NCBI GenBank assembly: GCA_026985075.1
Contig: JALSQX010000060.1
Coordinates: 1 to 64,000 of the forward strand
From: Blastocatellia bacterium
GTDB taxonomy: Bacteria; Acidobacteriota; Blastocatellia; HR10; J050
DNA length: 64,000 nucleotides
Reading direction: 5' to 3'
Under the pieces are notes generated by a model. The model worked only from the letters and a program-made list of their open reading frames with translations, was not told the DNA's origin and ran no database searches. Positions 10,253-57,678 of this stretch are shown piece after piece. Numbering within the stretch: position 1 is the first letter of the stretch; the number at the start of each line of letters is the position of its first letter. A program made the translations under genes and the position numbers.

Positions 10253-10501
10253 TCAACGATGGACGAGGAACGGCGGGGGGATCTCCAGCGCATGGGTCAC
10301 CCGAATGGCATCCACGTGACAATCAATGGCGCACAATCGACAGCTATGACATTCGTTGGGATAGACGATGACCGCCTTCCACGTCTTGGGCTCGACTTCC
10401 CATGGCTTCCCTGCTTCCATGAGCCGCAGGACATCGGTCGGGCAACTGTCAATGCACAGCCCACAACCATCGCAGAGCGATAAGTCGATGTGCTCAATCA
10501 T
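10253..10501 (-). CDS. 2x[4Fe-4S] ferredoxin, AprB-like
   Basis: The 82-residue protein has two cysteine clusters, CDGCGLCIDSCP (from residue 9) and CHSCRLCAIDCH, each with CxxCxxCxxxC spacing for one [4Fe-4S] centre. Between them lies a WKAVIVYP segment typical of AprB-like partners of AprA-type flavoproteins. The gene lies directly downstream of such a flavoprotein (9-base gap), and a near-identical arrangement occurs at 51853-53882. It probably passes electrons between that flavoprotein and the ETF or a diiron enzyme. GAGGAGG precedes the ATG. Confidence 0.9.
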   Translation of the reverse strand: MIEHIDLSLCDGCGLCIDSCPTDVLRLMEAGKPWEVEPKTWKAVIVYPNECHSCRLCAIDCHVDAIRVTHALEIPPPFLVHR

Positions 10502-10510
10502 TTCACCTCC

Positions 10511-12262
10511 TCACCGATAGGCCTCGGGAATGGGATAGGTGATGGGCCTCTTCCCTGAAGGAGCTTTGATAGGATATCGATCGTAGGGCAAATCCCAATA
10601 CGAGATGGCCAGCTCATCGCCTTCGTCCTGGCGTTGAACGAAGACCCACTTGAGCCACTCATCATTGTCAACGTAGGGATAATCGACGCGGATGAGCTCG
10701 CCCCGACTCTCCTTCCGCGCTCGCATGGCTTCGCACACGACCTCGGCCATCTGAAGATAGTTGGCCACCTCGTTGGCCTTGACGAGCTCGTGGATATCGG
10801 GCGCCGTCACTTTGGGCAGGAGCGTCCGTCGGATCTCCCGAAGCTCGTCCCGGGTGCGCGCGATGCGCTCTTCATTCTTGAACAAGGCGAATGGGGCCCG
10901 CGCCGTCACCTCGCCAATGGCCATCCAGACGTCGGCAGGGCGCGTCTGGCCTTTTCGCTCCAGGGGAGCGAAGAATCGCCCGATGAGTTCCTGCACTTGA
11001 CGGTCATGGACGGGAGGCGCCGGAATGGACGCTGCCAGGCGGGCCGCGTCCTCGCCAGCCCGATAGCCGCCCACGTTCGAATAGGTGGAGAGAGAGCTTC
11101 CCGAGATGCCCGTCATCATATGGGGAAGATGGGTGCAGGTGCCCACGCCGTAGAGTCCTTCCACCGTCGTGCGCGCCGTCAGGTCGACCCACATTCCACT
11201 GGAACTTCCCGTACCGATGAGAATGAACGAATCGGTGCGCAACAGATCTTTTCGGGGATCGACGTTGAATTCTCGAAAGGCGCGGTGAACGCTGGGCGCC
11301 ACCGTGTAGAGCACCTGGATATCCTCATCCGAACAGTGCCGCATGTCGACATAACAGGGACCGCGTCCCTCGATGTATTCGGTGGCAATCGCCCGGGCGA
11401 TCTGAAACAGCCCCGACATATTCCCCCAGATAGGATCGTATCGCGGCATGAACTCCTCGCCCTGGGCATTGATGAACTTGGCGCCGATCCCTTGAATCTT
11501 GGCCTGACCCGGAGTGAAGAAGGCGCGGTTGAAGTAACTCCAGGCGGCGTACTGCGCGAATTCCATACCGGCCATCCGTGCGCCAGCGCGGAAAGCCATG
11601 GCATGTCCTTCACCGGTGCAATGATCGACGAAGGCGTAATGAATCTTCGGATACAATGGGCCCGTATTCAAAATCACGGCTTTGGCTTTGAAGATGTAAG
11701 GTTCGCCAGTACGCACGTGAACGCCAAACGCGCCCGAGACCCGATCTCGCGTCGGAAAGCGGCCATCAGCGGTGAGCAGGTCGTTCACCATGACTTTCTC
11801 GATGAGCCGCACCCCCGCGCTCTTCATCTCCCGGCGAAGAATCTCCATACAGATGCGGCCATCGACCCCCAGCGTCGTCCCGATCTTGTGTCCGCGAACG
11901 ATGCTGTATTTGAGGTTTCCGCGTTCATCCCGGACGAACGGAACGCCCATCTCCACTAACTCTTGGACGCGGAGGTAACCTTCGCGGAGATAGAGTTCGA
12001 TCCAATCCTGATCGGCCAGGTAGTTGGCGCCGATGACGAACTCTTCGATCCATTTGAGGAGTTCATCCCCCTCCAATAACTTATAGGGCGCGAACTGGCT
12101 GTGCACGTAGGTCATCGGGCCGGCCCGGGAGACGACCGCCTTCTCGACCAGCGTGACGTCCGCTCCCAGTTCCCGGGCCCGGAGGGCCGCTCGCGCTCCC
12201 CCGAGACCACCACCGACGATCAAAACATCCGTGTTCACGACAGTTGGTGCCGGTAAGGCCAT
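10511..12262 (-). CDS. FAD-dependent AprA/fumarate-reductase-like flavoprotein
   Basis: The 583-residue protein opens with a dinucleotide fold (DVLIVGGGLGGARAALRA) and VEKAVVSRAGPMTYVHSQFA. It ends its FAD domain with YSNVGGYRAGEDAAR, as in the FrdA/AprA/LasPO superfamily. It lacks the HPGG-type covalent-flavin and fumarate-reductase landmarks, so succinate or fumarate chemistry is not implied. With the AprB-like ferredoxin it makes a two-gene redox unit, repeated at 51.9-53.9 kb as clear paralogues. True adenylylsulfate reduction is unlikely, because no sulfur genes are present. A role as reductase for the neighbouring diiron protein or the ETF is inference. Confidence 0.85.
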   Translation of the reverse strand: MALPAPTVVNTDVLIVGGGLGGARAALRARELGADVTLVEKAVVSRAGPMTYVHSQFAPYKLLEGDELLKWIEEFVIGANYLADQDWIELYLREGYLRVQELVEMGVPFVRDERGNLKYSIVRGHKIGTTLGVDGRICMEILRREMKSAGVRLIEKVMVNDLLTADGRFPTRDRVSGAFGVHVRTGEPYIFKAKAVILNTGPLYPKIHYAFVDHCTGEGHAMAFRAGARMAGMEFAQYAAWSYFNRAFFTPGQAKIQGIGAKFINAQGEEFMPRYDPIWGNMSGLFQIARAIATEYIEGRGPCYVDMRHCSDEDIQVLYTVAPSVHRAFREFNVDPRKDLLRTDSFILIGTGSSSGMWVDLTARTTVEGLYGVGTCTHLPHMMTGISGSSLSTYSNVGGYRAGEDAARLAASIPAPPVHDRQVQELIGRFFAPLERKGQTRPADVWMAIGEVTARAPFALFKNEERIARTRDELREIRRTLLPKVTAPDIHELVKANEVANYLQMAEVVCEAMRARKESRGELIRVDYPYVDNDEWLKWVFVQRQDEGDELAISYWDLPYDRYPIKAPSGKRPITYPIPEAYR

Positions 12263-12394: not shown

Positions 12395-13243
12395 TCACGC
12401 CGCGGATCGCGCCTGGACTTGATCGAGATAGGCGTGGGCCAGTTTGCCCATGGTATCGAAATACATCCAGAACAATCGAAGGCCGGTGCGGAACATGCGG
12501 AGGACACTCTCCTCTCTCTCCGGCGGGGTATTTTCGACGAGCATCCGCAGGACATAAGCGGCGTGCTTGGCCTCGGTCCCTTTGGTCTTGTCCACCGGCT
12601 TCCCCTCCAGCTCATCGAGCAACGTCCAATCATGGGCGAACAAGAAGGCGACGTCCTCCTTTTGCAGTTTCCCCGCCTGGATGAGCTTCTTCAGGATGGT
12701 CCACATGAGAGCGGCTCCCGCTCCTGGCGTTCGTTTGAGCTCGATCTGATCGGGATAAATCTTGGGGATCTGGCGCACGTTGGTCATTTCCGTGCACATG
12801 ATGGCCGCCGCCCCTTCCTGCCAGGGATAACTGCGCGAGAATTCGAAAAAGCTATGAATGAGGCCGAGGATCTGGGGAGGATAATGATCCCAATCCTCCA
12901 TCTCTTCATCGGTCGCTCCCAGGGCTAAAAGCAACCGGCGATGCAACCCGACGTGGCCATCTCGAGCCAGCGGATGAGGATCTTTCTTATCCTCGTCTTC
13001 CATGTCTTCGAGCAGGAGACGGCGGATCTCCGGGTCGGGACAATTGCCGTAGATATGACCGAGCCACATGGGAAAACTCACCACAAACGGCCGGAAATTC
13101 AACAGGACGACTTTGGAAAACCCCTTCAAGACCTCCAGGTCTTCGATGGTCAAGGCCCGCTCGTAAGCCGAGACGAGCGAGGGGGGATTCTCATGGAATT
13201 TCTCCACCTCCTTGATGAATCGGTTATACAGTTTTTCGGCCAT
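12395..13243 (-). CDS. Heme-oxygenase-fold (TenA/PqqC/CADD-like) iron protein, divergent
   Basis: The 282-residue helical protein resembles the iron-containing heme-oxygenase-like family. The FPMWLGHIYGNCPDPEIRRLLLEDMEDED region (about 57-85) and H90/H97, E152 and H204 fall near the expected ligand helices. Compared with its two relatives in this window it has an insertion after H204, and the HxxxDxxH motif is not intact, so the metal site is uncertain. It lies between the FadR regulator and the AprA-like flavoprotein with short gaps, hence probably one operon. The ATG at 13243 has GAGGAGG upstream; a GTG three codons earlier is too close to it. Confidence 0.7.
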   Translation of the reverse strand: MAEKLYNRFIKEVEKFHENPPSLVSAYERALTIEDLEVLKGFSKVVLLNFRPFVVSFPMWLGHIYGNCPDPEIRRLLLEDMEDEDKKDPHPLARDGHVGLHRRLLLALGATDEEMEDWDHYPPQILGLIHSFFEFSRSYPWQEGAAAIMCTEMTNVRQIPKIYPDQIELKRTPGAGAALMWTILKKLIQAGKLQKEDVAFLFAHDWTLLDELEGKPVDKTKGTEAKHAAYVLRMLVENTPPEREESVLRMFRTGLRLFWMYFDTMGKLAHAYLDQVQARSAA

Positions 13244-34924: not shown

Positions 34925-35626
34925 TCAGAATCCGATGAACGGAATCTGCCCTTCGCGACCGGCAGCGATGGATTGGGCGGGAAATTCCAACTCCCGGGCG
35001 ACCAACTCCAGGATCCGCTCTTGCGCCGATCGTCCCTGTTTGGCCAACATGCGCGCCGCCATCCGCCCGACGGCGATATGGAACAGCTCATCGGGTAAGA
35101 TGCGCTCCACCGTCGATCGGAGTTCGGGATGAGTATCGAACTTCAATGCTTCTTTGAAAAAGATCAGTGCGCCACGCTCAGAGATGAACTGACAGCAGAT
35201 GATCTCTTCCAGCGGATCTTCAATAGAATCGTAGTGCTCGAACATGTTGAACAACGGCTTGGCTTCCGGCGTCTCGAAAACATCCTTCTTGCCACCCATC
35301 TTGAAAGCGCAGTCGCGATACATCTTGAAGTGGCGCATCTCATCGTGTAATTGACGAGCCACGTTGAGCTTCAACTCCGGATAATCGAACCCGATCTTCT
35401 CGATCTGTCGGGCGAACGTATCCGCGGAGCGAATCTCACCCCAAGCGTTGTAATAACACATCTGCAACTGTTTTTCGACCGTATCCCAGGGGTTCCTGGT
35501 GACGAACGCCTCGGAGACCTTGCCCAGAATCTCATCGAGCACTTTATCCAGGGCGCTGATGAATTCGTTGGCATCGTCTCCGATGGGCACTTGTTTGATG
35601 AGATTGGCAATGGCTTCCGGTGACAT
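34925..35626 (-). CDS. Ferritin-like diiron protein, copy 1
   Basis: The 233-residue four-helix protein has the complete diiron ligand set: E64 (AWGEIRSADTFARQ), E96-x2-H99 (DEMRHFKMY), E150 (FISERG) and E180-x2-H183 (DELFHIAVG). This matches ferritin-like oxidases and oxygenases rather than storage ferritins, which lack the long N-terminal part. Its paralogue at 51025 shares AWGEIRSxDTFARQ. AAAGGAGG precedes the ATG at 35626. It probably oxidises an aromatic or CoA substrate; this is inference from context. Confidence 0.82.
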   Translation of the reverse strand: MSPEAIANLIKQVPIGDDANEFISALDKVLDEILGKVSEAFVTRNPWDTVEKQLQMCYYNAWGEIRSADTFARQIEKIGFDYPELKLNVARQLHDEMRHFKMYRDCAFKMGGKKDVFETPEAKPLFNMFEHYDSIEDPLEEIICCQFISERGALIFFKEALKFDTHPELRSTVERILPDELFHIAVGRMAARMLAKQGRSAQERILELVARELEFPAQSIAAGREGQIPFIGF

Positions 35627-35757
35627 AGGTTCCTCCTTTTCCGCTGAAGTCAATGGCTGACGGCGATGATCCTTCCGCCATCGAGCTTTTCTGGACCGCC
35701 CACTCCATCTCTTCTCTGTGGCCGCTCATCGATTCACGAGCGCCCTCTCCGCCTCGA

Positions 35758-36795: not shown

Positions 36796-37902
36796 TCACT
36801 GCCGATCGCGAAGGACTTTCAGGTGACTGATCCCTTTGAGTCCCTCGGCAATTTTGTGCCACGATTCACCTTCATCGTCGGTGGCATAGATGTCGCCACC
36901 AGTGGTTCCGAAATAGACGCTCATTCCTCCGTTGGTGGGACCGGCATCCAGCGCCCAGACCATATCGAACAACCGTTCGGGCAACCCGTTCATGATCGGG
37001 TCCCAGCGCTCGCCGGCATTGCGGCTGCGAAACAGGACGACATCGGCCCCTTTTCGCCGCCGCAGTTTCGATGGACTGAGGAAGTAGACGTGGCCGGTCA
37101 ACACGCCGACGGCCAGCTTGCTCATCGAGGCCCACCGTGGTGGAATACCGTCGGCGGCGGCCAGGAACAGCGTCTCGGGATTCTCGGGATGAAAAGCGAT
37201 GGCATCCTCACAGTAGGTGCGGAAATCCAGTCCCTCATTGGCCTGACGCCAACTCCGCCCCTCATCGTCGCTCCGATAGATGCCGAAGCCACCGAGTTGT
37301 TTGTACGGTGGGGTATCGTCTCCAGTGGCCACGATGAGTCGTTCGGGCCGGGCCGGATGAATGATCAATCGATGGATATCGTGACCGATTCCCTCGGCCG
37401 CTTCCCAATGCTCGCCGCCATCGCGACTGATGAGAAACGATCCCACTTCGATTCCCGCATAGAGCACCCGAGGGTCGCGGGGACTCACTTCCAGTGTGCG
37501 TACATGAGGTACGCGCGGCGGCACGGGAAAGCTCCATTCCCTGGCCCTGGGATGTTCGCGCAGATGGCCGCACTCGGTCCAGTGCGGTTCATCGCCGCGA
37601 CGCACGAATACGCCCGGCGGTTCCGTGCCCGCGTACACGGTATGAGGGTCGTGAGGACTCACGGCCAGCGCGCGGACATCTTTGAACGGAAGATCGTCGG
37701 TGATATCCTCCCAGGTCTGTCCGTAATCGGTGGACCGAAACACGCCCTCCTTATAGCTGCTGACGTACACCGTTCGCCGCTCGGCATCGGTGGCCATCGC
37801 CATGATCATCTTTCCCCGGAGCGTCGGCCCCAATCGGTGCCACCGCTGGCCGTGACCTTTCCAGAGAAAAAACACGCCTTCCTTGGCCGCCACAGATAAC
37901 AT
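36796..37902 (-). CDS. Cytosolic Asp-box (BNR) beta-propeller, copy 2
   Basis: The 368-residue protein has at least four good Asp boxes (STDYGQTW, SRDGGEHW, SDDEGRSW, TDDEGESW) and two degenerate ones. There is no signal peptide. It shares the REWSFPVPP-type block with EWRFPAPP of copy 1 and has similar spacing, so both come from one ancestor. The ATG at 37902 follows AAGGAGG; a TTG six codons earlier overlaps that site. It lies between the alcohol and aldehyde dehydrogenase genes. Function unknown. Confidence 0.8.
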   Translation of the reverse strand: MLSVAAKEGVFFLWKGHGQRWHRLGPTLRGKMIMAMATDAERRTVYVSSYKEGVFRSTDYGQTWEDITDDLPFKDVRALAVSPHDPHTVYAGTEPPGVFVRRGDEPHWTECGHLREHPRAREWSFPVPPRVPHVRTLEVSPRDPRVLYAGIEVGSFLISRDGGEHWEAAEGIGHDIHRLIIHPARPERLIVATGDDTPPYKQLGGFGIYRSDDEGRSWRQANEGLDFRTYCEDAIAFHPENPETLFLAAADGIPPRWASMSKLAVGVLTGHVYFLSPSKLRRRKGADVVLFRSRNAGERWDPIMNGLPERLFDMVWALDAGPTNGGMSVYFGTTGGDIYATDDEGESWHKIAEGLKGISHLKVLRDRQ

Positions 37903-37916
37903 ACCGATCACCTCCT

Positions 37917-44922: not shown

Positions 44923-47919
44923 TCAAAAATCCACGCGGAGCGCGAATTGAATCTGCCGGGCCGGTCCCGCCCCCGCCGGTCGTCCGAAACTGGGAAGCGC
45001 TCCCGCGACGCCATCCCGATAATGTCGGGGCACGGGGCCGATGAACTCGGCCGCCCCATAGACCGTGTCCACCTGAGTCACATTGGGGCGATTGAACAGA
45101 TTGAAGAACTCGATGAGCGGTTCGAGCGCGACCCGCTCGTTGATCTTCACCCGGCGCGCCAGGCGCAGATCGATCTGCTGGAAACGGTCTCCCCGATACG
45201 TATTGCGCCCGATGAGGCCGACGCGGTCGGTCCCGAATTCCAAATCGCTGTTGACATCGAATCCGGCGAAAATCGTTCCATAGCGACCGCTCTGCAGGGT
45301 GGCAATCAACCCGAGCTTGAATCCACGGGTGAACCACCAGCGATCGGGGCCCTCTCCATTAATCGTGAGGATGAACCGCTGTCCAACGTGTTGATTAGAA
45401 AGTCCCCAGTCGCGACCGATGTCCAGTGGATCTTCGAAGACATCCCGAAAGGTGTAGCCGGTAGGAAAATCGAGCGTCTTGGAGAACGTATAGTTGAGAT
45501 GAACGCCCAGACCGTGACTGAAGCGCTTCCGCACGGTGAGGAATCCACCATGATACACGGAGTCCGTTCCCGGAAAAGCCATCTGTACGATGCCGAATCC
45601 GGGATGAGGGCGATACCGGCGCTTGCCGTTGGGGAGCGTTCCCGACGGGATGGCATTCAACTGTACGCCAGCGTTCGGAATTTTCAATCCGTGCACGCCC
45701 AGATACCCGATGCCCAGACTGAGGTCCCGCACCAGTTCATATTCGATCTGCACGCTCCACTGCTCGGCATAGGGATGAGGGAAATCGCGGACCAGATGGC
45801 CGAACCCGTTGATGGCCAGAGGGCCACTGGGAAAGCTCCCCTGGATGAATTGTCGCAGCGCGGCGCCCGAAGTAAACGGTCCGGGCAATACGTTGACCGA
45901 AACACACGGCGAGGCCGTTTGACTGAAGAATCGCGCCCGCGCTGGATCGAGGAAAGCCAGATCCTCGGGACCACTCCCGCCACAGGTGAGGTGACCGACC
46001 AACCGCGACCAGAAATGCGGAGCGACGAACACCCCTCCGCCCGCTCGAATGACGCCCCGCCCTTCAGCGAATCCATAGGAGAGTCCCACCCGCGGTTGCA
46101 GGTTGTTCGTATCGGTGTCAACGCCAAAGAGCGAAGGCACCGTTTCCAGGAAATAGCGCGCTCCATAGGTGAGCGTCACATTCCCCGAACGCCAGCGATC
46201 CTGCACGAAAAACTCGATGATCTGATGGCTGTATGTGGTCAGCGCCGCCGCCCGGAAACGTTCGTCCGGGAACAGACGTCCGAGATCGCGAGCGGGGAGC
46301 GGCTCGCCCAGCAGATCGCGCGGGATGGCGAAGGCGAAGAAGAAAGGGAGCGTCTGCCCGAACGGAGGCAAGCCGAAGAAACTCTCCGGACCGAAGATGG
46401 CGAAGCCGGGGATGGTCGTCGAATAGAGCAGTCGATCGTCAATGTGATCAACGTTCGCCCCGACCTTGATCTCATGACTGCCGCGAAGCAGGCTGAGCGC
46501 ATCGCTGAACTGGAACCGATTCTCCCGATAAAAGTCGGCCGGACTGATGTGTTTGCCAAATGTGGCGATGTTGGTGATCTCGAGATTCGGTTCGAAGGTG
46601 AGCGGCGTGTTGGTGAACGACTTGCGCGAAAATTGGAAGAATCCCTGATTCACCGCCCCCGCCCCGAGCAGTGACGTGAGATTCACCATCAGCGATTGAC
46701 TGCGTACGTCGTTCTGTCGAAACGTGGACGGTCCACCCAAGCCTCCGGGGACGCTGGGGAAATTACCATTACGCTGATCAGCGAGGCTGTAACGAGCAAA
46801 CAGCGTGTGGGCCGGCGTGGCTTGAACGTCGATCCGCGCCAGAAGATAATCGTAGTTCTTCGTCTGCAGCTTGTTCAACTCCTCGGGACCCAATCCCAAC
46901 GCTCGCTTGACGCGATTGATCGCCGCGATATTGTCCAGGATGAAGCTCGTATACTGCGGCGATTCGGCCCGACGTTGTCCTTCATAATTGCCGAAAGAGA
47001 AAACCCGATCGCGCCGAATGGTTCCTCCCACGGAAGCACCAAACTGATGTTGGCGAAGGACATTGAAATCGGGGGCGCTCAACAGGTTCTTGGCATCCAG
47101 GGCACTGTTCCGCAGATAATAATAGAGTGATCCGTGGAGATCATTCGTTCCGCTCTTGGTGATGATATTGACAATCCCTCCCATGACCCGGCCATATTCC
47201 ACCGAATAGGTGCTGCTCAGGACGCGAAATTCTTTGACGGCATCCTGCGAGGGGCCAACGTGCTGAAGACCGTTCAGCGAGACGGTATGATCGCCACCGT
47301 CCAATCCGATGAAATTCGTATGTTGCTCGAACAACCCGGCGAACGAGAGTCGCGGGACATCCTCGGCAAGCAGCGCGGTGGCGCCAAAGGAAAATCCCTT
47401 CCCTACAGCCGTGGATGGAGTGAGCAAGGCGAAATCGATGAACTGGCGCCCGCTGATGGGGAGTTCGGTAATCCGGAGTTCATCGATGACGTCGCTCAGT
47501 TCAGTTTTAGTCGGCTCGACGGTGGCGACGTTCAGCGCACGCACTTCCACCTGCTCGGTCAACGCCTCTACGCGGAGAGTCACATCCAGCGTCGCCGTTT
47601 GTCCCACCGTCAGCTCCACGTCGGGCACGAGCATCGGTTGGAAGCCTTCGGCCTCCACCCGAACTTCATAATGACCGGGGGCCAGCGGCTTCAATCGATA
47701 GCCTCCCCGTTCGTCGGTCACCACTTCCCGCGTCTGATTGGTCCCCCGATTGCGAACGATCACTCGCGCTCCCGGTACCACTGCTCCCGCCGGATCTCTG
47801 ACCGTTCCACTCAATTCCGCGCCCACGGTTTGCGCCGCGACCGCGGGGAGGCCCCCAAGGAGGCACACGCCCCAGACCCAACTCCACCGGCGGATGATCT
47901 TCAACATCTCCAGGATCAT
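44923..47919 (-). CDS. Oar-type TonB-dependent receptor 2
   Basis: The 998-residue receptor has a signal peptide (to about 29, AVAAQ), a carboxypeptidase-regulatory-like domain (LSGTVRDPAGAVVPGARV), a plug with NIITKSGTNDLHGS and a barrel ending ALRVDF. It is a close paralogue of receptor 3 and more distant from receptor 1. Its ATG overlaps the stop of FadR regulator 2 (ATGA), so translation is probably coupled. A longer upstream frame inside the regulator gene was rejected. It probably imports the substrate of the Rieske oxygenase encoded next. Confidence 0.92.
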   Translation of the reverse strand: MILEMLKIIRRWSWVWGVCLLGGLPAVAAQTVGAELSGTVRDPAGAVVPGARVIVRNRGTNQTREVVTDERGGYRLKPLAPGHYEVRVEAEGFQPMLVPDVELTVGQTATLDVTLRVEALTEQVEVRALNVATVEPTKTELSDVIDELRITELPISGRQFIDFALLTPSTAVGKGFSFGATALLAEDVPRLSFAGLFEQHTNFIGLDGGDHTVSLNGLQHVGPSQDAVKEFRVLSSTYSVEYGRVMGGIVNIITKSGTNDLHGSLYYYLRNSALDAKNLLSAPDFNVLRQHQFGASVGGTIRRDRVFSFGNYEGQRRAESPQYTSFILDNIAAINRVKRALGLGPEELNKLQTKNYDYLLARIDVQATPAHTLFARYSLADQRNGNFPSVPGGLGGPSTFRQNDVRSQSLMVNLTSLLGAGAVNQGFFQFSRKSFTNTPLTFEPNLEITNIATFGKHISPADFYRENRFQFSDALSLLRGSHEIKVGANVDHIDDRLLYSTTIPGFAIFGPESFFGLPPFGQTLPFFFAFAIPRDLLGEPLPARDLGRLFPDERFRAAALTTYSHQIIEFFVQDRWRSGNVTLTYGARYFLETVPSLFGVDTDTNNLQPRVGLSYGFAEGRGVIRAGGGVFVAPHFWSRLVGHLTCGGSGPEDLAFLDPARARFFSQTASPCVSVNVLPGPFTSGAALRQFIQGSFPSGPLAINGFGHLVRDFPHPYAEQWSVQIEYELVRDLSLGIGYLGVHGLKIPNAGVQLNAIPSGTLPNGKRRYRPHPGFGIVQMAFPGTDSVYHGGFLTVRKRFSHGLGVHLNYTFSKTLDFPTGYTFRDVFEDPLDIGRDWGLSNQHVGQRFILTINGEGPDRWWFTRGFKLGLIATLQSGRYGTIFAGFDVNSDLEFGTDRVGLIGRNTYRGDRFQQIDLRLARRVKINERVALEPLIEFFNLFNRPNVTQVDTVYGAAEFIGPVPRHYRDGVAGALPSFGRPAGAGPARQIQFALRVDF

Positions 47920-48668
47920 TCCGAACCCTCTCGCTTCCGTTGCCACTCCCTCACCAGCGGCGTCATCCAGCGCGTCGATCCATTGATGAGATCGAGCATG
48001 GCCCGCTCGGCTCCCTCCACATCCCCTCGGCGAATCGCTTTGAACACGCGCTCGTGAGCCCGGGCCAGCCGACGGCGGATGACCTCTCCGCAATCGATGC
48101 CGGTGAACGACTCCCGCATGACTTCCACCAGAGCCGTGGCCATGAATTCCAGAATAGGATTGTCCTGAATGTCGCCGAGCAACTGATGAAACATCTCGTC
48201 AAATTTTTCGAATCGCGCCTGGGAGTGGAGATGCGCTTTCATTCCCTGCACCGCCCGTTCCATCCTCTCCAACCAGGCCGGGTCGGCGCGCTCGGCAGCT
48301 CGACGAGCGATCCTCGGTTCGATGAGCAGGCGGACTTCTTTCATGTGTTCGAGAGGGACGCGCCGGAGCCGGAGGAGCAATTTCAACGACTGGGCCATGG
48401 CCCGACCATCGGCCGAGGCCACGAACACGCCACCGTGCATCCCCTTGCGGATCTCCACCATCCCTTGCTGTTCGAGTTGCCTGAGAGCCTGACGAACCGA
48501 CGTCTTGCTCACCCCGAACCGTTTGGCCAACACCTCATCCGACGGCAGGCGATCTCCCGGCATGAGGGGCCCATTGAGAATGAGTTCCCGCAACTGGTCG
48601 GCGACGACGTCCGAAGGCCGCGTCCCCTTCACCGGCTGAAAGAGATGGTCGGCGATGTGGCTTCCCAT
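47916..48668 (-). CDS. FadR/GntR-family regulator 2
   Basis: The 250-residue protein has a GntR winged helix (about 15-85; LRELILNGPLMPGDRLPSDEVLAKRFGVSKTSVRQALR) and an FCD effector domain with EMFHQLLGDIQDNP and ARAHERVFKAI. The last metal His of the FCD site is not conserved (AMLDL). It is a clear paralogue of regulator 3, and both precede a paralogous receptor. AGGTGAAAA stands before the ATG. The operator and promoter upstream suggest autorepression of the 34-kb operon that follows. Confidence 0.92.
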   Translation of the reverse strand: MGSHIADHLFQPVKGTRPSDVVADQLRELILNGPLMPGDRLPSDEVLAKRFGVSKTSVRQALRQLEQQGMVEIRKGMHGGVFVASADGRAMAQSLKLLLRLRRVPLEHMKEVRLLIEPRIARRAAERADPAWLERMERAVQGMKAHLHSQARFEKFDEMFHQLLGDIQDNPILEFMATALVEVMRESFTGIDCGEVIRRRLARAHERVFKAIRRGDVEGAERAMLDLINGSTRWMTPLVREWQRKREGSE

Positions 48669-49037: not shown

Positions 49038-49829
49038 TCAAAGGATGAATCGCACCAGTCCGCCATCCACCTGAAGCGCGGCTCCGGTGATGTAGCTCGC
49101 CCGCGCCGAGGCGAGAAAGGCCACGACATCGGCCACCTCCTCCGGACGACCGTACCGGCCGAGTGGCACGAGGTCATCGATCGAACGGACGATCTCCTCC
49201 ACGCTCCGACCGGTGCGTTCCGCCTCCGCCCGCACCAGACGTTCCGACCGCCCGGTCCAGATGGGGCCCGGCAGGACGCTGTTGACCAGAATACCATCGT
49301 CGGCCAATTCGTCGGCCAGGCACTTGGCCAACGCCACGGCGGCGGCGCGGAGGACGTTGGATAACAGGAGATTGGGCATGGGCTGCTTCACCGATCGAGA
49401 CGAGAGAAAAATGATACGGCCATGGTTGGACGACTTCATCCACGGTAATGCGGCGCGCACGAGGCGGACGGGCGCCATCACGATCTGTTCGTAGCCGAGG
49501 TGCCAATCCTCGTCAGAGAGCGTCGCGAAGGCACCCGGTCGCGGAGCGGGGACATTGATGACCACGATGTCGAGACTCCCCCAGGCGTCGGCGGCGCGCC
49601 GCACCAATTCAGCGATCTCCGCCGGTCGCGTCAAGTCTGCGGGGAGCGCCAGCACGGGATTCCCCGTCTGACCCTGGATCTCATCGGCGGCTCGGCGCAA
49701 TCGCCGTTCATCGCGAGCGCAGATGGCCACATGGGCTCCCTCTCGGGAGAGCGCTTCAGCGACGGCCCGCCCGATACCTTGACTGGCTGCCGTCACCAGA
49801 GCATGGCGTCCTTTCAACTGCAGGTCCAT
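49038..49829 (-). CDS. SDR-fold protein lacking the YxxxK pair
   Basis: The 263-residue protein has the cofactor motif TAASQGIG (13-20) and the catalytic-Ser region FLSSRSVKQP. The Tyr-x3-Lys pair is replaced by S157-x3-R161 (LLLSNVLRAA), and NNAG reads NVPAP. I recall a subfamily annotated as FabG-like or BatM-like that has the same SNxLR pattern, so this looks like a family trait, not damage. Its chemistry is unclear. It ends the regulator 3 operon. GAGGAG precedes the ATG and overlaps the upstream stop. Confidence 0.82.
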   Translation of the reverse strand: MDLQLKGRHALVTAASQGIGRAVAEALSREGAHVAICARDERRLRRAADEIQGQTGNPVLALPADLTRPAEIAELVRRAADAWGSLDIVVINVPAPRPGAFATLSDEDWHLGYEQIVMAPVRLVRAALPWMKSSNHGRIIFLSSRSVKQPMPNLLLSNVLRAAAVALAKCLADELADDGILVNSVLPGPIWTGRSERLVRAEAERTGRSVEEIVRSIDDLVPLGRYGRPEEVADVVAFLASARASYITGAALQVDGGLVRFIL

Positions 49830-49839
49830 GAACGACTCC

Positions 49840-50895
49840 TCACCGGGTGACGATCATCTCCGGGTGCACGATCTCCCCTCGTTCAATGATGGGTCGATCG
49901 TCCAGATAGACCGTGCACCGACGCATGGGCATGTCCAGATGACAGCGCGTGAAGCGATTGGCGTATCGATTGGGTCCCGTCGAGAACATGAAGTTGCCGT
50001 AAAAGCTGCGCGGTTCGACCCCGATGATCTCACCCTTATCGTACAGAGCCAAGCTGTTCCAGCGAGCCGTCTCGTCCAATCCCCATCCCATATGAGACGT
50101 GGCGTAGGCCTCCGGATCGCGCCAACTGGCGAAGTAATCGCGGAGCAGATCGGCATCCAACCCCTGGCCGTTGATCTCGCGGATGTATCCCTGACGCACG
50201 ACGAATTCGACGGGAGATTCGATGTACCGCTTGAAGGGAAACACGATATCACCCACGTCGAGCACAACCGTTCCTTGCGTTGACCCCTCCTGAGGATAAA
50301 CAGCAACCAGTCCACTCGGCCAATGATCCCAGCGTCCTCGTTGATCGGTATACCCGTACTGGGTCACCAGGGGGGCCTGGGCCACGGTCATCGTCAGATC
50401 AGTCCCCGCATCGGAGGTGACGCGCAACGTGGTGCTCTCGCCGAGCAACTGGGCTGCCCGTTCGACTCGCCGACGCAAGTCCTCTCGAGGGAAACATCGA
50501 TGAAGAACGTCGGGCGGTTCGATGATGGTGAGCATCCGGGCGCCCGCGCCGAGAATCTCGCCCCGCTCGGGCGCGTGAATTAATCCTTCAACGGTGAGAT
50601 CGATGACCAGATTGGCCTCTTTCAGCGCCTTGACCGCCGTGGACAGGGCGCTCTGTCGATTTCCCCCGGCCCGCGCCTCATCGATGAAGGGCACGTCCTG
50701 ACGATGCGTCTTGGGTAATCCGAGATGGAACACCCGAGCACCGAGGGCCTGCGCCGCGCCCAGACTGGCCTCGACATATTCGGCGCGACTCCCCGATTCG
50801 CTGACCACGGCGACGACTTCACCGGGCTCGAGGCGACAGAGCCGAAACTCGCGTTGGAAGAGCTGGAAGAGATCGCTGCTCGCTGAAGGTCCCAT
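49840..50895 (-). CDS. NicX-like (2,5-dihydroxypyridine 5,6-dioxygenase family) ring-cleavage enzyme
   Basis: The 351-residue protein follows NicX, which has an M29-aminopeptidase-like fold, along its length: YGYTDQRGRWDHWPSG, LDVGDIVFPFK, SHMGWGL, SFYGNFMFSTGPN, CHLDMP and YLDDRPI. H268, H319 and D321 correspond to the Fe(II) ligands I recall for NicX (H265, H318, D320). The family opens a pyridine-diol ring with O2 without a 2-His-1-Glu cupin or LigB fold. No nicotinate genes are nearby, so the substrate may differ. The ATG at 50895 follows GAGGAGG. Confidence 0.82.
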   Translation of the reverse strand: MGPSASSDLFQLFQREFRLCRLEPGEVVAVVSESGSRAEYVEASLGAAQALGARVFHLGLPKTHRQDVPFIDEARAGGNRQSALSTAVKALKEANLVIDLTVEGLIHAPERGEILGAGARMLTIIEPPDVLHRCFPREDLRRRVERAAQLLGESTTLRVTSDAGTDLTMTVAQAPLVTQYGYTDQRGRWDHWPSGLVAVYPQEGSTQGTVVLDVGDIVFPFKRYIESPVEFVVRQGYIREINGQGLDADLLRDYFASWRDPEAYATSHMGWGLDETARWNSLALYDKGEIIGVEPRSFYGNFMFSTGPNRYANRFTRCHLDMPMRRCTVYLDDRPIIERGEIVHPEMIVTR

Positions 50896-51024: not shown

Positions 51025-51777
51025 CTAATGGGCTTCCCGTCGACCGGTGAGATTGGCCGACTTATCGGCCAGCGTGAAGGGGAGGATGCGCGCTGCCAGA
51101 TCGAGCATTCGCCGCTGCTCCTCCACGCCTTCGGCGGCCAGCATCTCGGCGGCCATTTTGCCCACGCCGTGAACGTGAAATTTTTCGTCGGGGACGATCT
51201 GATCCAGCGCTCGCTTGAATTCCGGATGAAGCTCAGGAATGTCCCTGACCGCGGCGAAGAGATGCAAGGGGAACCGCTCGTCCACGAACTGGCAACTGAA
51301 GATTTGCTCGCGGACATCATCGGAGCAACGCTCATCGCAATAGGCGAACATCTCATAGAGTGAGCCGGCCTTCTCCTCCGGTGACGTATTGAGGACCTCA
51401 GGGCCTCCCATCTTCACGGCGGCGGCGTTATACAGCTTGAAGTGCCGCATCTCGTCGGCCATCTGCTGAACGACGACGTGCTTGAGGTCGGGATAGCGAG
51501 CGCCAATGCGCTCGACCTGCCGGGCGAACGTATCGACGGAGCGAATCTCGCCCCAGGCATTGAAATAGCAGGTATTCAACTGGGTCTCCACGGCATCCCA
51601 GGGCAGATGCTCGACGATGAACCCGGCGGCCTCGCTCATGATGGCGTCCAGTCGTTCTCCCAGCGCGGACACGAACTCATCGGCGGACACGCCCACGGGA
51701 AGGTCATCAAAGATCCGTCGAACATCCCCTTGCCGAAGGAGGTCCAAAGCTCGATTCCACCACGACGTGTGACCCAT
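51025..51777 (-). CDS. Ferritin-like diiron protein, copy 2
   Basis: The 250-residue protein keeps all diiron ligands: E77 (AWGEIRSVDTFARQ), E109-x2-H112 (DEMRHFKLY), E167 (FVDERF) and E198-x2-H201 (DEKFHVHG). It is about half identical by eye to copy 1. It lies directly downstream of the AprA-like flavoprotein and ferredoxin genes, so these are candidate electron donors, and upstream of the NicX-like dioxygenase. AAGGAGG precedes the ATG. Confidence 0.83.
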   Translation of the reverse strand: MGHTSWWNRALDLLRQGDVRRIFDDLPVGVSADEFVSALGERLDAIMSEAAGFIVEHLPWDAVETQLNTCYFNAWGEIRSVDTFARQVERIGARYPDLKHVVVQQMADEMRHFKLYNAAAVKMGGPEVLNTSPEEKAGSLYEMFAYCDERCSDDVREQIFSCQFVDERFPLHLFAAVRDIPELHPEFKRALDQIVPDEKFHVHGVGKMAAEMLAAEGVEEQRRMLDLAARILPFTLADKSANLTGRREAH

Positions 51778-51852
51778 GATCTGTCACCTCCTTTCAGAGA
51801 AGCCCCCGACCGGCGCCGTCACCGACGGGACGATGATGAGCCCCGTCGACGC

Positions 51853-52128
51853 TCAATGGGTGCGGGGCTCGTAGAAGATCAACCCCACATGAGGTTGAAA
51901 CGGTTTGGGTAACGGGACGCGCTGAGAGACGGTGATGGCGTCGACGTGGCAATCCTGCACGCACAGCTTACAGCCGTGGCATTCCTGGGGATAGGCGATG
52001 ATCGCTTTCCAGCCCATCGACTCCCACGCCTCGCCCACCTGGGCCATGCGCAGGACGTCGGCCGGACAACTCTCGACGCAGACCCAGCACCCATCGCAGA
52101 GATCGAAATCGATTCGCTCAATGGCCAC
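51853..52128 (-). CDS. 2x[4Fe-4S] ferredoxin, AprB-like, copy 2
   Basis: The 91-residue protein has CDGCWVCVESCP and CHGCKLCVQDCH, each CxxCxxCxxxC, with WKAIIAYP between them as in the copy at 10253. The start is a GTG at 52128 with GGAGG six to seven bases upstream; a longer frame further upstream is inside the flavoprotein gene and was rejected. The tail PFQPHVGLIFYEPRTH is longer than in copy 1. It pairs with the flavoprotein just upstream. Confidence 0.9.
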   Translation of the reverse strand: MAIERIDFDLCDGCWVCVESCPADVLRMAQVGEAWESMGWKAIIAYPQECHGCKLCVQDCHVDAITVSQRVPLPKPFQPHVGLIFYEPRTH

Positions 52129-52139
52129 GCGTTCACCTC

Positions 52140-53882
52140 CTACCGGTACGGTTCGGGAACGGAGAACGGGCTCGGTTTCCGTTCGCGCTTTTCGGGCTGG
52201 ATGGGATAACGATCCAGGGGGACCTCCGGCGTCGAGATATGAGGCTGACCGTCGGTCGTCTGCTTGATGACCACCCAGCGCAACCAGTTGATATCGTCCT
52301 GGTAGGGGAAATCGGCGCGAAAATGCTCTCCGCGACTCTCCTCTCGCGCACCATAGGCCAGGCAACAGAGTTCGACCATCTCCACGTAGCTGCGCGCTTC
52401 CAGGGCCTTGACCAACTCGTGCGGGTCGGGCGCGCTCATCCGAGGGAGCAGAAACGCTTTGATCTCGCCGACCAGACGCCGCGTCCTGTCGATGCGCTCG
52501 GCATTCTTGAACAGGGCAAATGTGGATTCGCAGGTCACATCGCCAATGGCCGCCCACACATCGGCGGGGCGCGTGTGGCCTCGTCGGTCCAGCGGAGCGA
52601 GCATCTCGGCGAGGACCTCCTTCAATTGCGACCCGTCCACCGGCGGATGCTCCATCCGTTGCGCCCGCCGGGCGGCATCCTCGCCGGCGCGATACCCGCC
52701 CACATTGGAGAACGTCGAGTGCCCGCTGCCCGAATTACCCGACATGATCACTGGCAGGCAGGTGCACGTCCCCAAGGCATACAAGCCCGAGACGTTGGTG
52801 CGCGACCAGGTGTCGACGCGAAGGCCTCCGCTCGTTCCCATGCCGATGGCCATGAACGGCGTCGTTTTGAGCGGTCGCTTCCTCAGATCGATGCCGAATT
52901 CCCGGAGACCGAGATCGAGCGTGGGCACGACGCGAAGGAGCATCTCGATATCCTCTTCCCGGCAGTGACGGAAGTCCACGTAACAGGGCCCGCGGCCTTC
53001 CATGTTCTCGGTGATGATGGCGCGAGCCACGCGATAGAGGCTGGACAGATTCCCCCACTCCGGATCGTAACGCCACATGAACTCCTCGCCGCGGGCGTTG
53101 ATGAACTTCGCGCCGATGCCCTGAATTTTGGCCTGGCCGGGCGAAGAGAACGTATCTTCCCAGTAGCTCCATGAGGCGTATTGCGTGAATTCCATCCCGG
53201 CCAACTCGGCGCCCGCCCGATAGGCCATGCGATGTCCTTCGCCGGTGACGCCGTCGATGTAGGAGAAGTGAATCTTGGGATAGAGCGGTCCGGTGTTGAG
53301 AATGACCGCCTTGGAGCGAATGACCAATGGCTCGCCGGTGCGGACATGAAACCCCACGGCGCCGCTCACCTCCCCGGCCGTGGGATATCGTCCGTCGGAG
53401 GTGAGCAGATCGGTCATCATCACTTTCTCCAGCAAGCGCACGCCATGGCGCCTCAGTTCGCGCCGCAGGATGTCCATGACCACCTTGCCATCGACGTTGA
53501 TCGTCTTGCCGACTTTATGGCCGCGACTCGTCGTGTACTTGAGCCGACCGTCCGCATCGCGTTCATAAGGCACGCCCATCCTGACGAGTTCATCGATGCG
53601 AGAGGGAGCCTCGGTGAGGAGCACGTCGAGCCACTCCTGATCGGCCAGGTAGTTGGAGGCCTCGACGAACTCGCGCATCCAGACGAGCTTCTCCTCATCG
53701 GTGAGTGGCCAGGGGGCGAACTGGCTGTGGACGAACGTCATCGGCCCAGCACGCCCGATGACGGCTTTCTCGGTGAGGACGACGTCGCAGCCTAGCTCGC
53801 GCGCGCGCAACGCGGCGCGACAGCCGCCGATGCCACCGCCGATGACCAGGACGTCCGTGCACAACTCCGTCGGTTGCCTCAT
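52140..53882 (-). CDS. FAD-dependent AprA/fumarate-reductase-like flavoprotein, copy 2
   Basis: The 580-residue paralogue of the protein at 10511 has DVLVIGGGIGGCRAALRA, LTEKAVIGRAGPMTFVHSQFA, and FSNVGGYRAGEDAAR near the end of the FAD domain. The two copies are collinear throughout, so the catalytic site is presumably shared. I preferred the ATG at 53882 (GGGGA seven bases upstream) to one at 53900, which directly adjoins the receptor stop and lacks a ribosome site. It precedes its ferredoxin and a ferritin-like diiron protein. Confidence 0.85.
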   Translation of the reverse strand: MRQPTELCTDVLVIGGGIGGCRAALRARELGCDVVLTEKAVIGRAGPMTFVHSQFAPWPLTDEEKLVWMREFVEASNYLADQEWLDVLLTEAPSRIDELVRMGVPYERDADGRLKYTTSRGHKVGKTINVDGKVVMDILRRELRRHGVRLLEKVMMTDLLTSDGRYPTAGEVSGAVGFHVRTGEPLVIRSKAVILNTGPLYPKIHFSYIDGVTGEGHRMAYRAGAELAGMEFTQYASWSYWEDTFSSPGQAKIQGIGAKFINARGEEFMWRYDPEWGNLSSLYRVARAIITENMEGRGPCYVDFRHCREEDIEMLLRVVPTLDLGLREFGIDLRKRPLKTTPFMAIGMGTSGGLRVDTWSRTNVSGLYALGTCTCLPVIMSGNSGSGHSTFSNVGGYRAGEDAARRAQRMEHPPVDGSQLKEVLAEMLAPLDRRGHTRPADVWAAIGDVTCESTFALFKNAERIDRTRRLVGEIKAFLLPRMSAPDPHELVKALEARSYVEMVELCCLAYGAREESRGEHFRADFPYQDDINWLRWVVIKQTTDGQPHISTPEVPLDRYPIQPEKRERKPSPFSVPEPYR

Positions 53883-53900
53883 CGCCTCGTCCCCGGGCAT

Positions 53901-56879
53901 TCAGAAGTTGATGCGCAGAGCGAACTGAATCTGGCGCGCCGGTCCGGCCACCGCCGGTTGCCCGAAGCTGGGCACGGCGCCAGCGATGCCATCGCGAAAG
54001 TATTGCGGCACCGGCCCAATGAAATCGGGAGCGCCGTAAACGGTATTGACCTCGGTCACGTTGGGGCGATTGAACAGATTGAAGAACTCGATGAGCGGCT
54101 CGATGACGACCTGCTCGGTGAGATGAACGTCCCGCGACAGGCGCAGATCGATCTGTTTGAAGCTATCGCCCTTATAGGTGTTCCGGCCGATGATGCCGAC
54201 GCGATCCGGCCCGAACTCCAGGTCACCGTTGGCATCGAAACCGGTGAAGATGGACGTGAAACGAGGACTTTGGAGCGTGGCGATGACGCCCAGTTTGAAG
54301 CCCCGCGTGAGCCACCACCGCTTGGGCGCTTCGCCAGTGAACGTCAAGATGAAGCGCTGGCCGACGTGTTGATTGGACAGAGCCCAATCCAGCCGGGCGT
54401 TCAGCGGATCCTGGAAGAGGTCGCGGAACGTAAACCCGGTGGGGAAATCGAGCGTCTTGGAGAAGGTGTAATTCACGTTCAAGGCGAATCCATGACTCAT
54501 GCGCTTGGTGATAGTGACGAAGCCGCTATGATAGACGGAATCGACGCCGGGAAAGGCCATATGAACGATCCCCGCCGCTGGCGACTTCGGCCGGTAGGAG
54601 ATTTTCCCGCTGGGGAGCGTCCCGATGGGCTCGGCGTTGAGTTGGATGCCCGCACTGGGAATCTTCAGACCGTGAACGCCCAGATATCCAATCCCCACGC
54701 TCAGGTCCTTCAACAGCTCGTACTGCACCTGCAGGCTCCATTGCTCGGCGTAGGCGTTGGGGAAATCTTTCACCAGATTGGTGAACCCGTTGAAGGCCAG
54801 CGGCCCGGTGGGATATTGTCCCTGTTCGATGAACTGACGCAGGGCGAGACTGGAGGTGAACACGCCGGGGATCACGTTCGCCGTGACGCAGGGCGTCGAT
54901 GATTCGCTGAAGAAACTGGCTCGCGGCGCATCGAACAAGGCGATGATGTCAGCTCCCCCTCCGACGCAGGTTCGCTGATTGACCAGCCGCGACCAGAAGT
55001 GCGGCGCGACGAACAATCCCGCTCCCGCCCGGATCACTCCTTTCCCATTGGCGAATCCATACGAGAGGCCGACCCGCGGTTGGAAGTTGTTCTTGTCCGT
55101 GTTGATGCCAAAATTGGCCACCGTCTCCAAGTAGTACCGCACGCCATAGGTCAACGTCAGCTGCCTGTATCGCCAGCGGTCCTGAACGAAAAATTCGTAG
55201 ATCTCGTGATTGTATTTTGTGCGCGCGCCGTCTTCGTACACCTGGTTGGGGAACAACTTATTCAAATCATGAGTGGGGAACGGTTCGCCACGGATGATGC
55301 CCAGGGCGAAGAACACCGGGACCGTTTGGTTGAAGGGAGGGAGCCCCAAGAAGCTCTCCGGCGTGAAAATGGCGAATCCGGGAATGGTCAGCGACCAGAG
55401 GACATCGTCTCGAATGTGATCGAACGTGAATCCGAACTTGACCTCGTGATCTCCGGAGATCACGCTGAACGTATCGCTGAATTCGAACCGATTCTCCTTA
55501 TACATATCGGCGGGACCGATATGCTTGCCGAAGGTGGCTAGATTGGGGAGCTCGAGATTGGGCTCGAAGGTCAACGGCATGTTGGTGAACGCCTTTCGCG
55601 AATACTGGAAGAAGCCCTGATTGACCAATCCCGTTCCCAGCAGCGACGTCAGATTGACCATCAGCGACTGACTCCGGACATCGTTCTGGCGAAACGTCGA
55701 GGGTCCACCGATCCCCCCGGGGACGCTGGGGAAGTTGCCGTTGCGTTGATCGGCGAAACTGTAGCGCGTGAACAGGGCGTGTTCGGGACTGAGCTGGGCA
55801 TCGTTGCGAATCAAGAAGTAATCGTAATTCTTCGTCTGCAACTGCTCGAGAATCTCCGGACCCAGACCGAGCGACGCCTTGGCGCGATTGATGGCCTCAA
55901 TGTTGTCCAGGATGAAACTATTGTACTGAGGCGACTCGGCTCGCCGCTGGCCTTCGTAGTTGCCAAAGTAGAAGAAGCGATCTTTGACGATCGGTCCCCC
56001 GACCGAGGTGCCGAATTGATGCTGTCGCAGAACGTTGAACCCTGGCGCGCTGAGGATGTTCTTGGCATCCAGAGCATCGTTGCGCAGATAATAGTAGACG
56101 GTTCCGTGGACATCGTTCCCCCCACTCTTGGTGATGATGTTGACGATGCCCCCCATGACGCGCCCATATTCCAGCGAATAGGTACTGCTCAGGACGCGAA
56201 ACTCTTTGACGGCATCTTGCGAAGGTCCGATATGCTGCAACCCGTTCAGCGAGACCGAGTGATCGCCGCCATCCAATCCGATGAAGTTGGTATGTTGTTC
56301 GAACAAGCCGCCGAACGCCAATCGCGGCACATCTTCGAGCAGTGGAGAGCTGGCTCCAAAGGAGATCCCCTTCCCCACCACGGTGGACGGCGTGAGCAGG
56401 GCGAAATCGATGAATTGACGCCCATTGATGGGAAGCTCGGTGATTCGCACTTCATCGATGACTTCGCTCAATTCCGTCTTGGTCGGTTCCACCAGGGCGA
56501 CGCCGGTATCTCTCACCTCGATCTCCTCGGTCAACGCCTCGACGCGGAGTGTGGCATCCAGCGTCGCCGTTTGACCGACGGTCAACACGACATCCTTGAT
56601 GACCAACGGCTGAAACCCCTCCGCCTCGATGGTGAGCTCATACTGACCGGGCGGCAATGGACCGAGGCGATAGAGGCCACTCTCATTGGTCGTCGCCTCG
56701 GCCGTTCGATTCGTTTTCACGTTCCGGGCCTCGACCCGCGCCCCGGCGACGACGGCCCCCGCCGGGTCGCGCACCGTTCCGCTCAATTCCGCTCCTACGG
56801 TCTGCCCGCGGACGAGTCCCGAAATCAAACTTCCGCACAAGGCGAGCCCAACAAAATATCCAATGACGCGATACCGCAT
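53901..56879 (-). CDS. Oar-type TonB-dependent receptor 3
   Basis: The 992-residue receptor has a signal peptide (to about 26, VRGQ), a carboxypeptidase-regulatory-like domain (LSGTVRDPAGAVVAGARV), a plug with NIITKSGGNDVHGT and a barrel ending ALRINF. It is very similar to receptor 2, pointing to duplication of a regulator-receptor unit. The ATG at 56879 follows AAGGAGG; 28 codons upstream overlap the regulator gene's end and were rejected. It probably imports the substrate for the diiron/NicX-like module. Confidence 0.92.
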   Translation of the reverse strand: MRYRVIGYFVGLALCGSLISGLVRGQTVGAELSGTVRDPAGAVVAGARVEARNVKTNRTAEATTNESGLYRLGPLPPGQYELTIEAEGFQPLVIKDVVLTVGQTATLDATLRVEALTEEIEVRDTGVALVEPTKTELSEVIDEVRITELPINGRQFIDFALLTPSTVVGKGISFGASSPLLEDVPRLAFGGLFEQHTNFIGLDGGDHSVSLNGLQHIGPSQDAVKEFRVLSSTYSLEYGRVMGGIVNIITKSGGNDVHGTVYYYLRNDALDAKNILSAPGFNVLRQHQFGTSVGGPIVKDRFFYFGNYEGQRRAESPQYNSFILDNIEAINRAKASLGLGPEILEQLQTKNYDYFLIRNDAQLSPEHALFTRYSFADQRNGNFPSVPGGIGGPSTFRQNDVRSQSLMVNLTSLLGTGLVNQGFFQYSRKAFTNMPLTFEPNLELPNLATFGKHIGPADMYKENRFEFSDTFSVISGDHEVKFGFTFDHIRDDVLWSLTIPGFAIFTPESFLGLPPFNQTVPVFFALGIIRGEPFPTHDLNKLFPNQVYEDGARTKYNHEIYEFFVQDRWRYRQLTLTYGVRYYLETVANFGINTDKNNFQPRVGLSYGFANGKGVIRAGAGLFVAPHFWSRLVNQRTCVGGGADIIALFDAPRASFFSESSTPCVTANVIPGVFTSSLALRQFIEQGQYPTGPLAFNGFTNLVKDFPNAYAEQWSLQVQYELLKDLSVGIGYLGVHGLKIPSAGIQLNAEPIGTLPSGKISYRPKSPAAGIVHMAFPGVDSVYHSGFVTITKRMSHGFALNVNYTFSKTLDFPTGFTFRDLFQDPLNARLDWALSNQHVGQRFILTFTGEAPKRWWLTRGFKLGVIATLQSPRFTSIFTGFDANGDLEFGPDRVGIIGRNTYKGDSFKQIDLRLSRDVHLTEQVVIEPLIEFFNLFNRPNVTEVNTVYGAPDFIGPVPQYFRDGIAGAVPSFGQPAVAGPARQIQFALRINF

Positions 56880-56913
56880 ACACTTCACCTCCTTCGACGT
56901 GGTCAATGACATG

Positions 56914-57678
56914 TCAATCCTCCCCCAGATTCCCACCCGATGCAGGTGGAGCCGAGGAGGCAATGAATGGGGCGAGCCAGCGATTCGCCCCCTTGATGAG
57001 AGCCACCATGGCTCGTTCGGCGGCTACGCCATCGCCTCGCTGGATGGCTTTGAATACGCGGGCGTGGCTCCGCATGAGCCGGCGACGATTGTCCACCCCA
57101 TAATCGATACCGGAGAACGCATCGCGAATGACCTCCAGCAGCGCCATGGCCAAGAACTCGAATACCGGATTCCCCTGACTTCGCCCGAGAGCGTGATGAA
57201 AGGCGTCATCGTATTGCTCGAATTCGGCTTCGGAATCAAGGTGCTCTTTCATGCCCTGGATGGCGGCAGCCATCTGCTCGATGAGCTCTGGGCGCGCATA
57301 CTGAGCGGCTCGTCGAGCCATCACCGGCTCAATGGCCAATCGCGCTTCAGTCACTTGCGCGATAGGAATCCGCCGCAATTTCAACAGGAGGGTGAGGGAA
57401 CTGGCCAGCGATTCTCCATCCACGCGGGTGACGAAGGCGCCGCCGCGAGCACCTTTGCGAATCTCGACGATACCCTGCTGTTCGAGCTGGCGGAGCGCTT
57501 CTCGGATGCAGGCGCGGCTGGTGCCAAACCGCTCGGCCAATTGACGTTCGGAGGGGAGCCGATGCCCGGGCTCAATGTGCCCCTGAAGGATGAGCTGGCG
57601 GATGCGATCGGCGACGACATCGGAGAGCCGCACCGCTCGTACCGGCTTGAACAATCGTAAGTTCGCTTTCGATCCCAC
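56914..57678 (-). CDS. FadR/GntR-family regulator 3
   Basis: The 254-residue protein has a GntR winged helix (about 15-85; IRQLILQGHIEPGHRLPSERQLAERFGTSRACIREALR) and an FCD domain with DAFHHALGRSQGNP and MRSHARVFKAI. The start is a GTG at 57678 with GAGGG upstream. It shares with regulator 2 the segments DVVADxxRxLIL, ALRQLEQQG and VEIRKGxxGG. It heads the receptor 3, flavoprotein, diiron and NicX-like operon. Its operator, ATGGTCAGACCAT, matches the FadR-subfamily pattern. Confidence 0.92.
   Translation of the reverse strand: MGSKANLRLFKPVRAVRLSDVVADRIRQLILQGHIEPGHRLPSERQLAERFGTSRACIREALRQLEQQGIVEIRKGARGGAFVTRVDGESLASSLTLLLKLRRIPIAQVTEARLAIEPVMARRAAQYARPELIEQMAAAIQGMKEHLDSEAEFEQYDDAFHHALGRSQGNPVFEFLAMALLEVIRDAFSGIDYGVDNRRRLMRSHARVFKAIQRGDGVAAERAMVALIKGANRWLAPFIASSAPPASGGNLGED

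Follow-up and report, generated by a model that had tools for sequence, protein, structure and literature searches.

To our knowledge, the well-studied multicomponent diiron oxygenases receive their electrons through NAD(P)H-dependent reductases. BoxA, which serves the benzoyl-CoA epoxidase BoxB, carries two [4Fe-4S] clusters and FAD and is of the fused ferredoxin-NADP reductase type. BoxB itself is a ferritin-like diiron oxygenase with E/ExxH/carboxylate/ExxH ligands, and its reduction by BoxA/NADPH provides a precedent for a diiron epoxidase that depends on a separate component (PMC5489048). Another type of redox pair occurs in the dissimilatory APS reductase AprAB and in the PAPS reductase of M. 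thermolithotrophicus (MtPAPSR), where adjacent genes encode an alpha subunit that contains FAD and belongs to the fumarate reductase superfamily, and a ferredoxin-like beta subunit with two [4Fe-4S] clusters. In MtPAPSR, the FAD of the alpha subunit is coupled to the two clusters of the beta subunit (PMC10322725). On the side of ring cleavage, bacteria are known to degrade 2-hydroxypyridine by means of a 5-monooxygenase and a 2,5-dihydroxypyridine dioxygenase (PMC5159870), and the Fe ligands and two substrate histidines of NicX have been described (PMC7910607).

Module B encodes a flavoprotein (FlavB), a small ferredoxin (FdB) and a predicted ferritin-like diiron protein (FerB) side by side. 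The locus recalls BoxAB in its diiron protein and ligand pattern, but its flavoprotein is AprA-like; FerB, at about half the length of BoxB, does not match the BoxB model (TIGR03225) and was rejected as a BoxB on that ground. FlavB-FdB has the build of AprAB, a fumarate-reductase-family alpha subunit and an eight-cysteine ferredoxin beta subunit from adjacent genes. Unlike AprAB, however, FlavB scores far below the cut-off of the AprA-type model NF005331 (147 against 557 bits), the pair sits with diiron and ring-cleaving enzymes, and sulfate-activation genes were not noticed here. A sequence-only reading had taken the pair for a general reductase combined with different oxygenases; the observation stands, and this interpretation is partly supported. 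No description of a flavoprotein-diiron gene pairing was found in the open-access literature.

Gene order in module B and its paralogue

The window, a stretch of 64,000 nucleotides, is part of a 130.8-kb contig (C60) of an Acidobacteriota genome (G000). Two relatives carry these genes as well, Bacterium HR10/HRbin10 (G008) and Acidobacteria bacterium isolate J050 (G001), both presumably of hot-spring origin, to go by their record names. The putative module B unit reads, in minus-strand order, GntR, TonB-type receptor, FlavB, FdB, FerB, NicX-like dioxygenase and SDR. Its head is a GntR/FCD regulator (56914..57678), assigned by homology to other GntR/FCD regulators here; the FCD family is shown by Pfam for the GntR paralogue at 47916-48668. 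Directly upstream of FlavB lies a TonB-dependent-receptor-like gene with a carboxypeptidase-regulatory-like N-terminus (53901..56963), its family assigned by inspection of the sequence. A TonB-type receptor is found upstream in all three ferritin-like modules (module B and those of HR10 and contig C304 of G001).

FlavB (52140..53900), FdB (51853..52128) and FerB (51025..51777) are confirmed where they had been placed, on the minus strand; the FlavB start used earlier corresponds to an in-frame ATG at 53882. The genes are closely spaced, with 11 bp from FlavB to FdB, 75 bp from FdB to FerB and 129 bp from FerB to the start of the NicX-like gene (49840..50895, minus). Strong ribosome-binding sites precede FdB, FerB and the NicX-like gene, and the start codon of FdB is a GTG preceded by AGGAGGTGA. 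Promoter and terminator scans did no better than shuffles. The unit closes with SDR49, a short-chain dehydrogenase (49038..49829, minus; Pfam adh_short_C2), which is kept after FerB in HR10 (72%). Comparison with the HR10 orthologues shows strong purifying selection on all three core genes, with dN/dS of 0.13/2.19 for FlavB, 0.11/1.43 for FdB and 0.21/1.86 for FerB.

Module A carries a second copy of the pair, so the paralogy noted from the sequence holds: FlavA (10511..12262, minus) is 59% identical to FlavB, and FdA (10253..10501, minus) is about 55% identical to FdB, a value read from the G001 copy of FdA, which is 99% identical to that in the window. A fused ETF gene follows FdA in module A of G000 and G001. 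The diiron-type protein of module A, HDO12 (12395..13243, minus), is haem-oxygenase-like and matches PF14518 with 34.0 bits (gathering cut-off 28.9). In alignment, the E...H, E, HxxxD/ExxH ligand set of HDO12 is incomplete: E87, H100, E155 and H207 are kept, but the HxxxDxxH motif ends in Glu instead of His in the two distinct sequences compared, including that of HR10, and the Asp spacing is longer. Because most ligands are kept and a Glu stands at the last His, its diiron site is likely but altered.

Both modules lie amid genes for ring-cleaving enzymes, CoA ligases and Rieske proteins. Two BNR/sortilin-type repeat proteins are encoded inside the catabolic island (window 29879-31015 and 36796-37920). 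Two more haem-oxygenase-like diiron genes, each with a complete HxxxDxxH (window 27802-28572 and 32463-33194), are found next to UbiD, isochorismatase and SDR genes and have no flavoprotein neighbour. Beyond the window, C60:69062-70297 encodes a shorter BoxB/PaaA-like diiron protein beside two ADH genes (72 bits to BoxB, below the cut-off of 499), adding to the diiron genes in which the contig is rich.

Identity of the redox pair, FerB and the NicX-like enzyme

FlavB is an FAD flavoprotein of the fumarate reductase/SDH/APS-reductase-alpha superfamily, with Pfam matches to FAD_binding_2 (4.9e-48) and Succ_DH_flav_C and an HR10 orthologue at 82% identity. Flavoproteins of this superfamily normally act on a substrate of their own. 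A profile built from six homologues finds the PAPS reductase alpha subunit of M. thermolithotrophicus (8a8o) as its best PDB match at 193 bits, followed by mycobacterial succinate dehydrogenase at 183 bits. Alignment to 6lum reveals four replacements in FlavB: RSH by RAG, MEFHQFHPT by MEFTQYASW, TCHY by TTPF, and GANRLG by SGNSGSG. We take the replaced positions to be the covalent-FAD His and the dicarboxylate-binding His/His/Arg of SDH/FRD; with these residues replaced, FlavB was rejected as a succinate dehydrogenase or fumarate reductase flavoprotein, and its FAD is likely non-covalent. FlavB falls below the curated cut-off of every NCBIfam family shown, and its AlphaFold2 model (pLDDT 45) is unusable.

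FdB has Fer4 matches and two complete CxxCxxCxxxC motifs, whose eight cysteines fit two [4Fe-4S] clusters in an AprB-like arrangement. No NAD(P)H-binding domain was detected on FlavB. By sequence, the pair resembles APS/PAPS reductase alpha-beta and not an NAD(P)H reductase. With an alpha subunit of APS/PAPS reductase type, in which an NAD(P)H domain is not evident, the pair may be the general reductase first proposed, but its sequence does not show it to be one.

No Pfam or NCBIfam model matched FerB, and no significant match was found among PDB sequences. Its predicted ligands, E77, E109xxH112, E167 and E198xxH201, are invariant in an alignment of eight homologues from three genomes and make up a complete canonical E/ExxH/E/ExxH diiron set. 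AlphaFold2 predicts a ferritin-like fold with confidence (pLDDT 89.1); Foldseek returned weak E-values, the best for UndA (2.7e-3). VIA-align superimposes the model on aldehyde-deformylating oxygenase (Z ~15, about 2.2-2.3 A over ~170 residues) and MiaE (Z 15.3), and on PqqC and CADD with Z ~17 over more residues than on aldehyde-deformylating oxygenase. Because helical bundles generally score high, the ligand pattern and not Z decides that FerB is ferritin-like. The HxxxD/ExxH motif of haem-oxygenase-like proteins is absent from the third ligand helix of FerB in the alignment; the sequence there is PDExFH, in which the position four residues ahead of the carboxylate is not a His, and this speaks against a haem-oxygenase-like diiron oxidase despite the fold alignment to PqqC and CADD. 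The model and the invariant ligands support the earlier assignment of FerB as a ferritin-like diiron protein. FerB shares its core fold and ligand pattern with aldehyde-deformylating oxygenase and MiaE but differs from them in sequence (~13% identity), in an extra N-terminal helix and in gene context.

Two paralogues of FerB are encoded on the contig, both without a flavoprotein neighbour. Fer35 (34925..35653, minus; 47%) adjoins UbiD and a haem-oxygenase-like gene; Fer66 (C60:66189-66908, beyond the window; 41%) lies between NAD-epimerase and alcohol dehydrogenase genes. The ADH-Fer gene order recurs in HR10. Conserved peptide patterns of FerB, sought in genomes of 84,980 species by a method that misses distant relatives, matched in the same order only, and no FerB relatives were found in plasmids. 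A profile search of 396 genomes of the phylum returned, outside the order, weak partial matches over the ExxH half (E 1e-10 to 1e-3), which are read as generic ferritin-like proteins.

The NicX-like protein is, as had been proposed, a close NicX relative (PDB 7cn3, E 5.6e-89), of the 2,5-dihydroxypyridine 5,6-dioxygenase type. Because it keeps the Fe ligands His265, Ser302, His318 and Asp320 and the substrate histidines His105 and His189, one may reasonably guess that it cleaves a ring of the 2,5-dihydroxypyridine type. The link to module B is not conserved: in the orthologous HR10 operon, FlavB-FdB-FerB is followed directly by the SDR, and NicX is missing. NicX homologues elsewhere adjoin Rieske oxygenases rather than FlavB (G000:C22, G001:C88, G008:C29), a recurrent neighbourhood that also includes DHDPS-like genes. 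Given its absence from HR10 and these Rieske-linked homologues, NicX is an optional partner outside the core.

Recurrence and change of the diiron partner

The flavoprotein was searched for in three sets of genomes: 10 from the order, 162 from the class and 396 sampled evenly across the phylum. Its close subfamily (at least 56% identity) has six members, two each in G000, G001 and G008, all from one order of uncultured Acidobacteria. The sequence-only reading had staked itself on recurrence in other genomes, and recurrence was found: every one of the six flavoprotein genes directly adjoins a diiron-type gene on the same strand, haem-oxygenase-like in three cases and ferritin-like in the other three. 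FlavA and HDO12 are adjacent in all three genomes, the G001 copy being split over contigs C63 and C219, and FlavB is joined to FerB through FdB in G000 and G008. The remaining flavoprotein, FlavC304 on contig C304 of G001, adjoins a ferritin-like gene and is the one of the six that has no adjacent ferredoxin. In the tree, FlavC304 nests inside the FlavA clade with support 99/97, which indicates that the diiron partner changed at least once. FerB-family and flavoprotein-subfamily genes co-occur in the same three of 10 order genomes and may have been inherited as one island.

Because conserved orthologous modules are not independent events, the six cases amount to three independent arrangements. 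Within the stretch, seven of the 55 other genes are diiron-type, and random placement would put both flavoprotein units beside one with P = 0.058. With diiron genes this dense, adjacency within the window alone is not striking, and it is the recurrence in other genomes that carries the argument. In a small sample, the adjacency, the two folds and at least one partner change support the proposal that a single redox unit has been combined with two kinds of diiron protein. On the other side stand four haem-oxygenase-like or ferritin-like genes of the contig (HDO28, HDO33, Fer35, Fer66) that have no flavoprotein neighbour.

Distant relatives of the pair occur without a diiron protein beside them. 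At about 28-30% identity, related pairs occur in flavoprotein-ferredoxin-HEAT-ABC transporter operons (for example in Cupriavidus, Methylocystis and Methylobacterium), which share the flavoprotein superfamily and the adjacent small ferredoxin but have no diiron neighbour. The best plasmid relatives of the flavoprotein are ~30% identical; most of the annotated ones examined share an operon with ferredoxin, HEAT-repeat and ABC-transporter genes, and none has a diiron gene in that operon. On several proteobacterial plasmids, an uncharacterised operon combines an AprA-like flavoprotein, a ferredoxin, a HEAT repeat, sometimes DUF971, and an ABC transporter.

Possible electron supply to FerB

Our favored reading, to which we give a probability of about 0.5, is a multicomponent diiron oxygenase, encoded by module B, that acts in the catabolism of aromatic or heteroaromatic rings and that an AprAB-like flavoprotein-ferredoxin supplies with electrons. 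FlavB and FdB would form an alpha-beta unit like APS/PAPS reductase, with electrons passing between its flavin and its two [4Fe-4S] clusters. FdB would reduce the diiron site of FerB; where the ferredoxin is absent, the flavoprotein might do so directly. The carboxylate-bridged diiron site of FerB would then activate O2 and oxygenate the ring, which a partner would then cleave, for instance NicX or, in a sister module, gentisate-type cupins. In module A, this type of unit is combined with a haem-oxygenase-like diiron protein instead. Candidate reductants of FlavB are a pathway intermediate oxidised at the flavin, ETF, or cellular ferredoxin. The gene set, the predicted FerB fold and its conserved ligands, and the recurrence with a change of partner are read from sequence; from these we infer that the proteins form a complex, that FlavB/FdB pass electrons to FerB, that O2 is activated, and what the substrate may be.

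The main rival holds that FlavB-FdB is a stand-alone AprAB-like oxidoreductase whose flavin oxidises or reduces a pathway intermediate and whose FdB connects it to a general electron carrier, and that FerB catalyses a separate step in this pathway, taking no electrons from the pair. The PAPS reductase alpha subunit as best PDB profile match, the eight-cysteine ferredoxin as in AprB, the related pairs in ABC transporter/HEAT operons free of diiron genes, and the diiron genes that do without the pair all fit such an arrangement. Adjacency in six of six cases and the change of diiron partner in the flavoprotein tree are, however, unexpected for unrelated steps, and we regard this account as possible but less likely than not. 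It is very unlikely that FerB is instead a protective, rubrerythrin-like peroxidase or iron-binding protein that shields Fe-S and flavin enzymes from O2. Fer35 has a sub-threshold Rubrerythrin match, and a ferritin-like fold by itself does not show function, but there is no rubredoxin domain, and diverged paralogues in different catabolic units, among ring-cleaving dioxygenase, UbiD and dehydrogenase genes, better fit substrate-specific enzymes.

The pair might also supply the missing reductase of a nearby Rieske oxygenase or of BoxB. BoxA (TIGR03224) exceeds its cut-off in none of the 10 order genomes, against three of 10 for BoxB; FlavA-FdA-HDO12 sits in HR10 in one cluster with a true BoxB and BoxC (734 and 754 bits, above cut-off); and module B has a Rieske alpha gene at a distance of ~6 kb. 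Yet that Rieske gene belongs to its own GntR-led unit, two genomes have BoxB and no subfamily flavoprotein (G002, G009), and G000 and G001 have the flavoprotein and no BoxB above cut-off. Since the constant nearest neighbour is a diiron gene, and the flavoprotein tracks HDO12 and FerB rather than BoxB, this role is highly improbable. Bona fide BoxB genes in genomes without BoxA above cut-off are located at G008:C29, G002:C61 and G009:C143, and in HR10 a hemerythrin-like gene stands between BoxC and an ALDH gene.

The diiron oxygenase reading of module B can be extended, in a form that we consider tentative and rather unlikely. The APS-reductase-type flavoprotein-ferredoxin might serve O2-activating diiron oxygenases of two unrelated folds interchangeably, feeding them electrons independently of NAD(P)H, perhaps from the oxidation of a pathway intermediate, within an unnamed family of ferritin-like oxygenases. 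If either form of the reading is true, a flavoprotein of the sulfate-reductase type would stand in the place of a reductase, a way of powering O2 chemistry that would be new, and FerB would found a family of its own among the diiron proteins of aromatic breakdown in these little-known bacteria.
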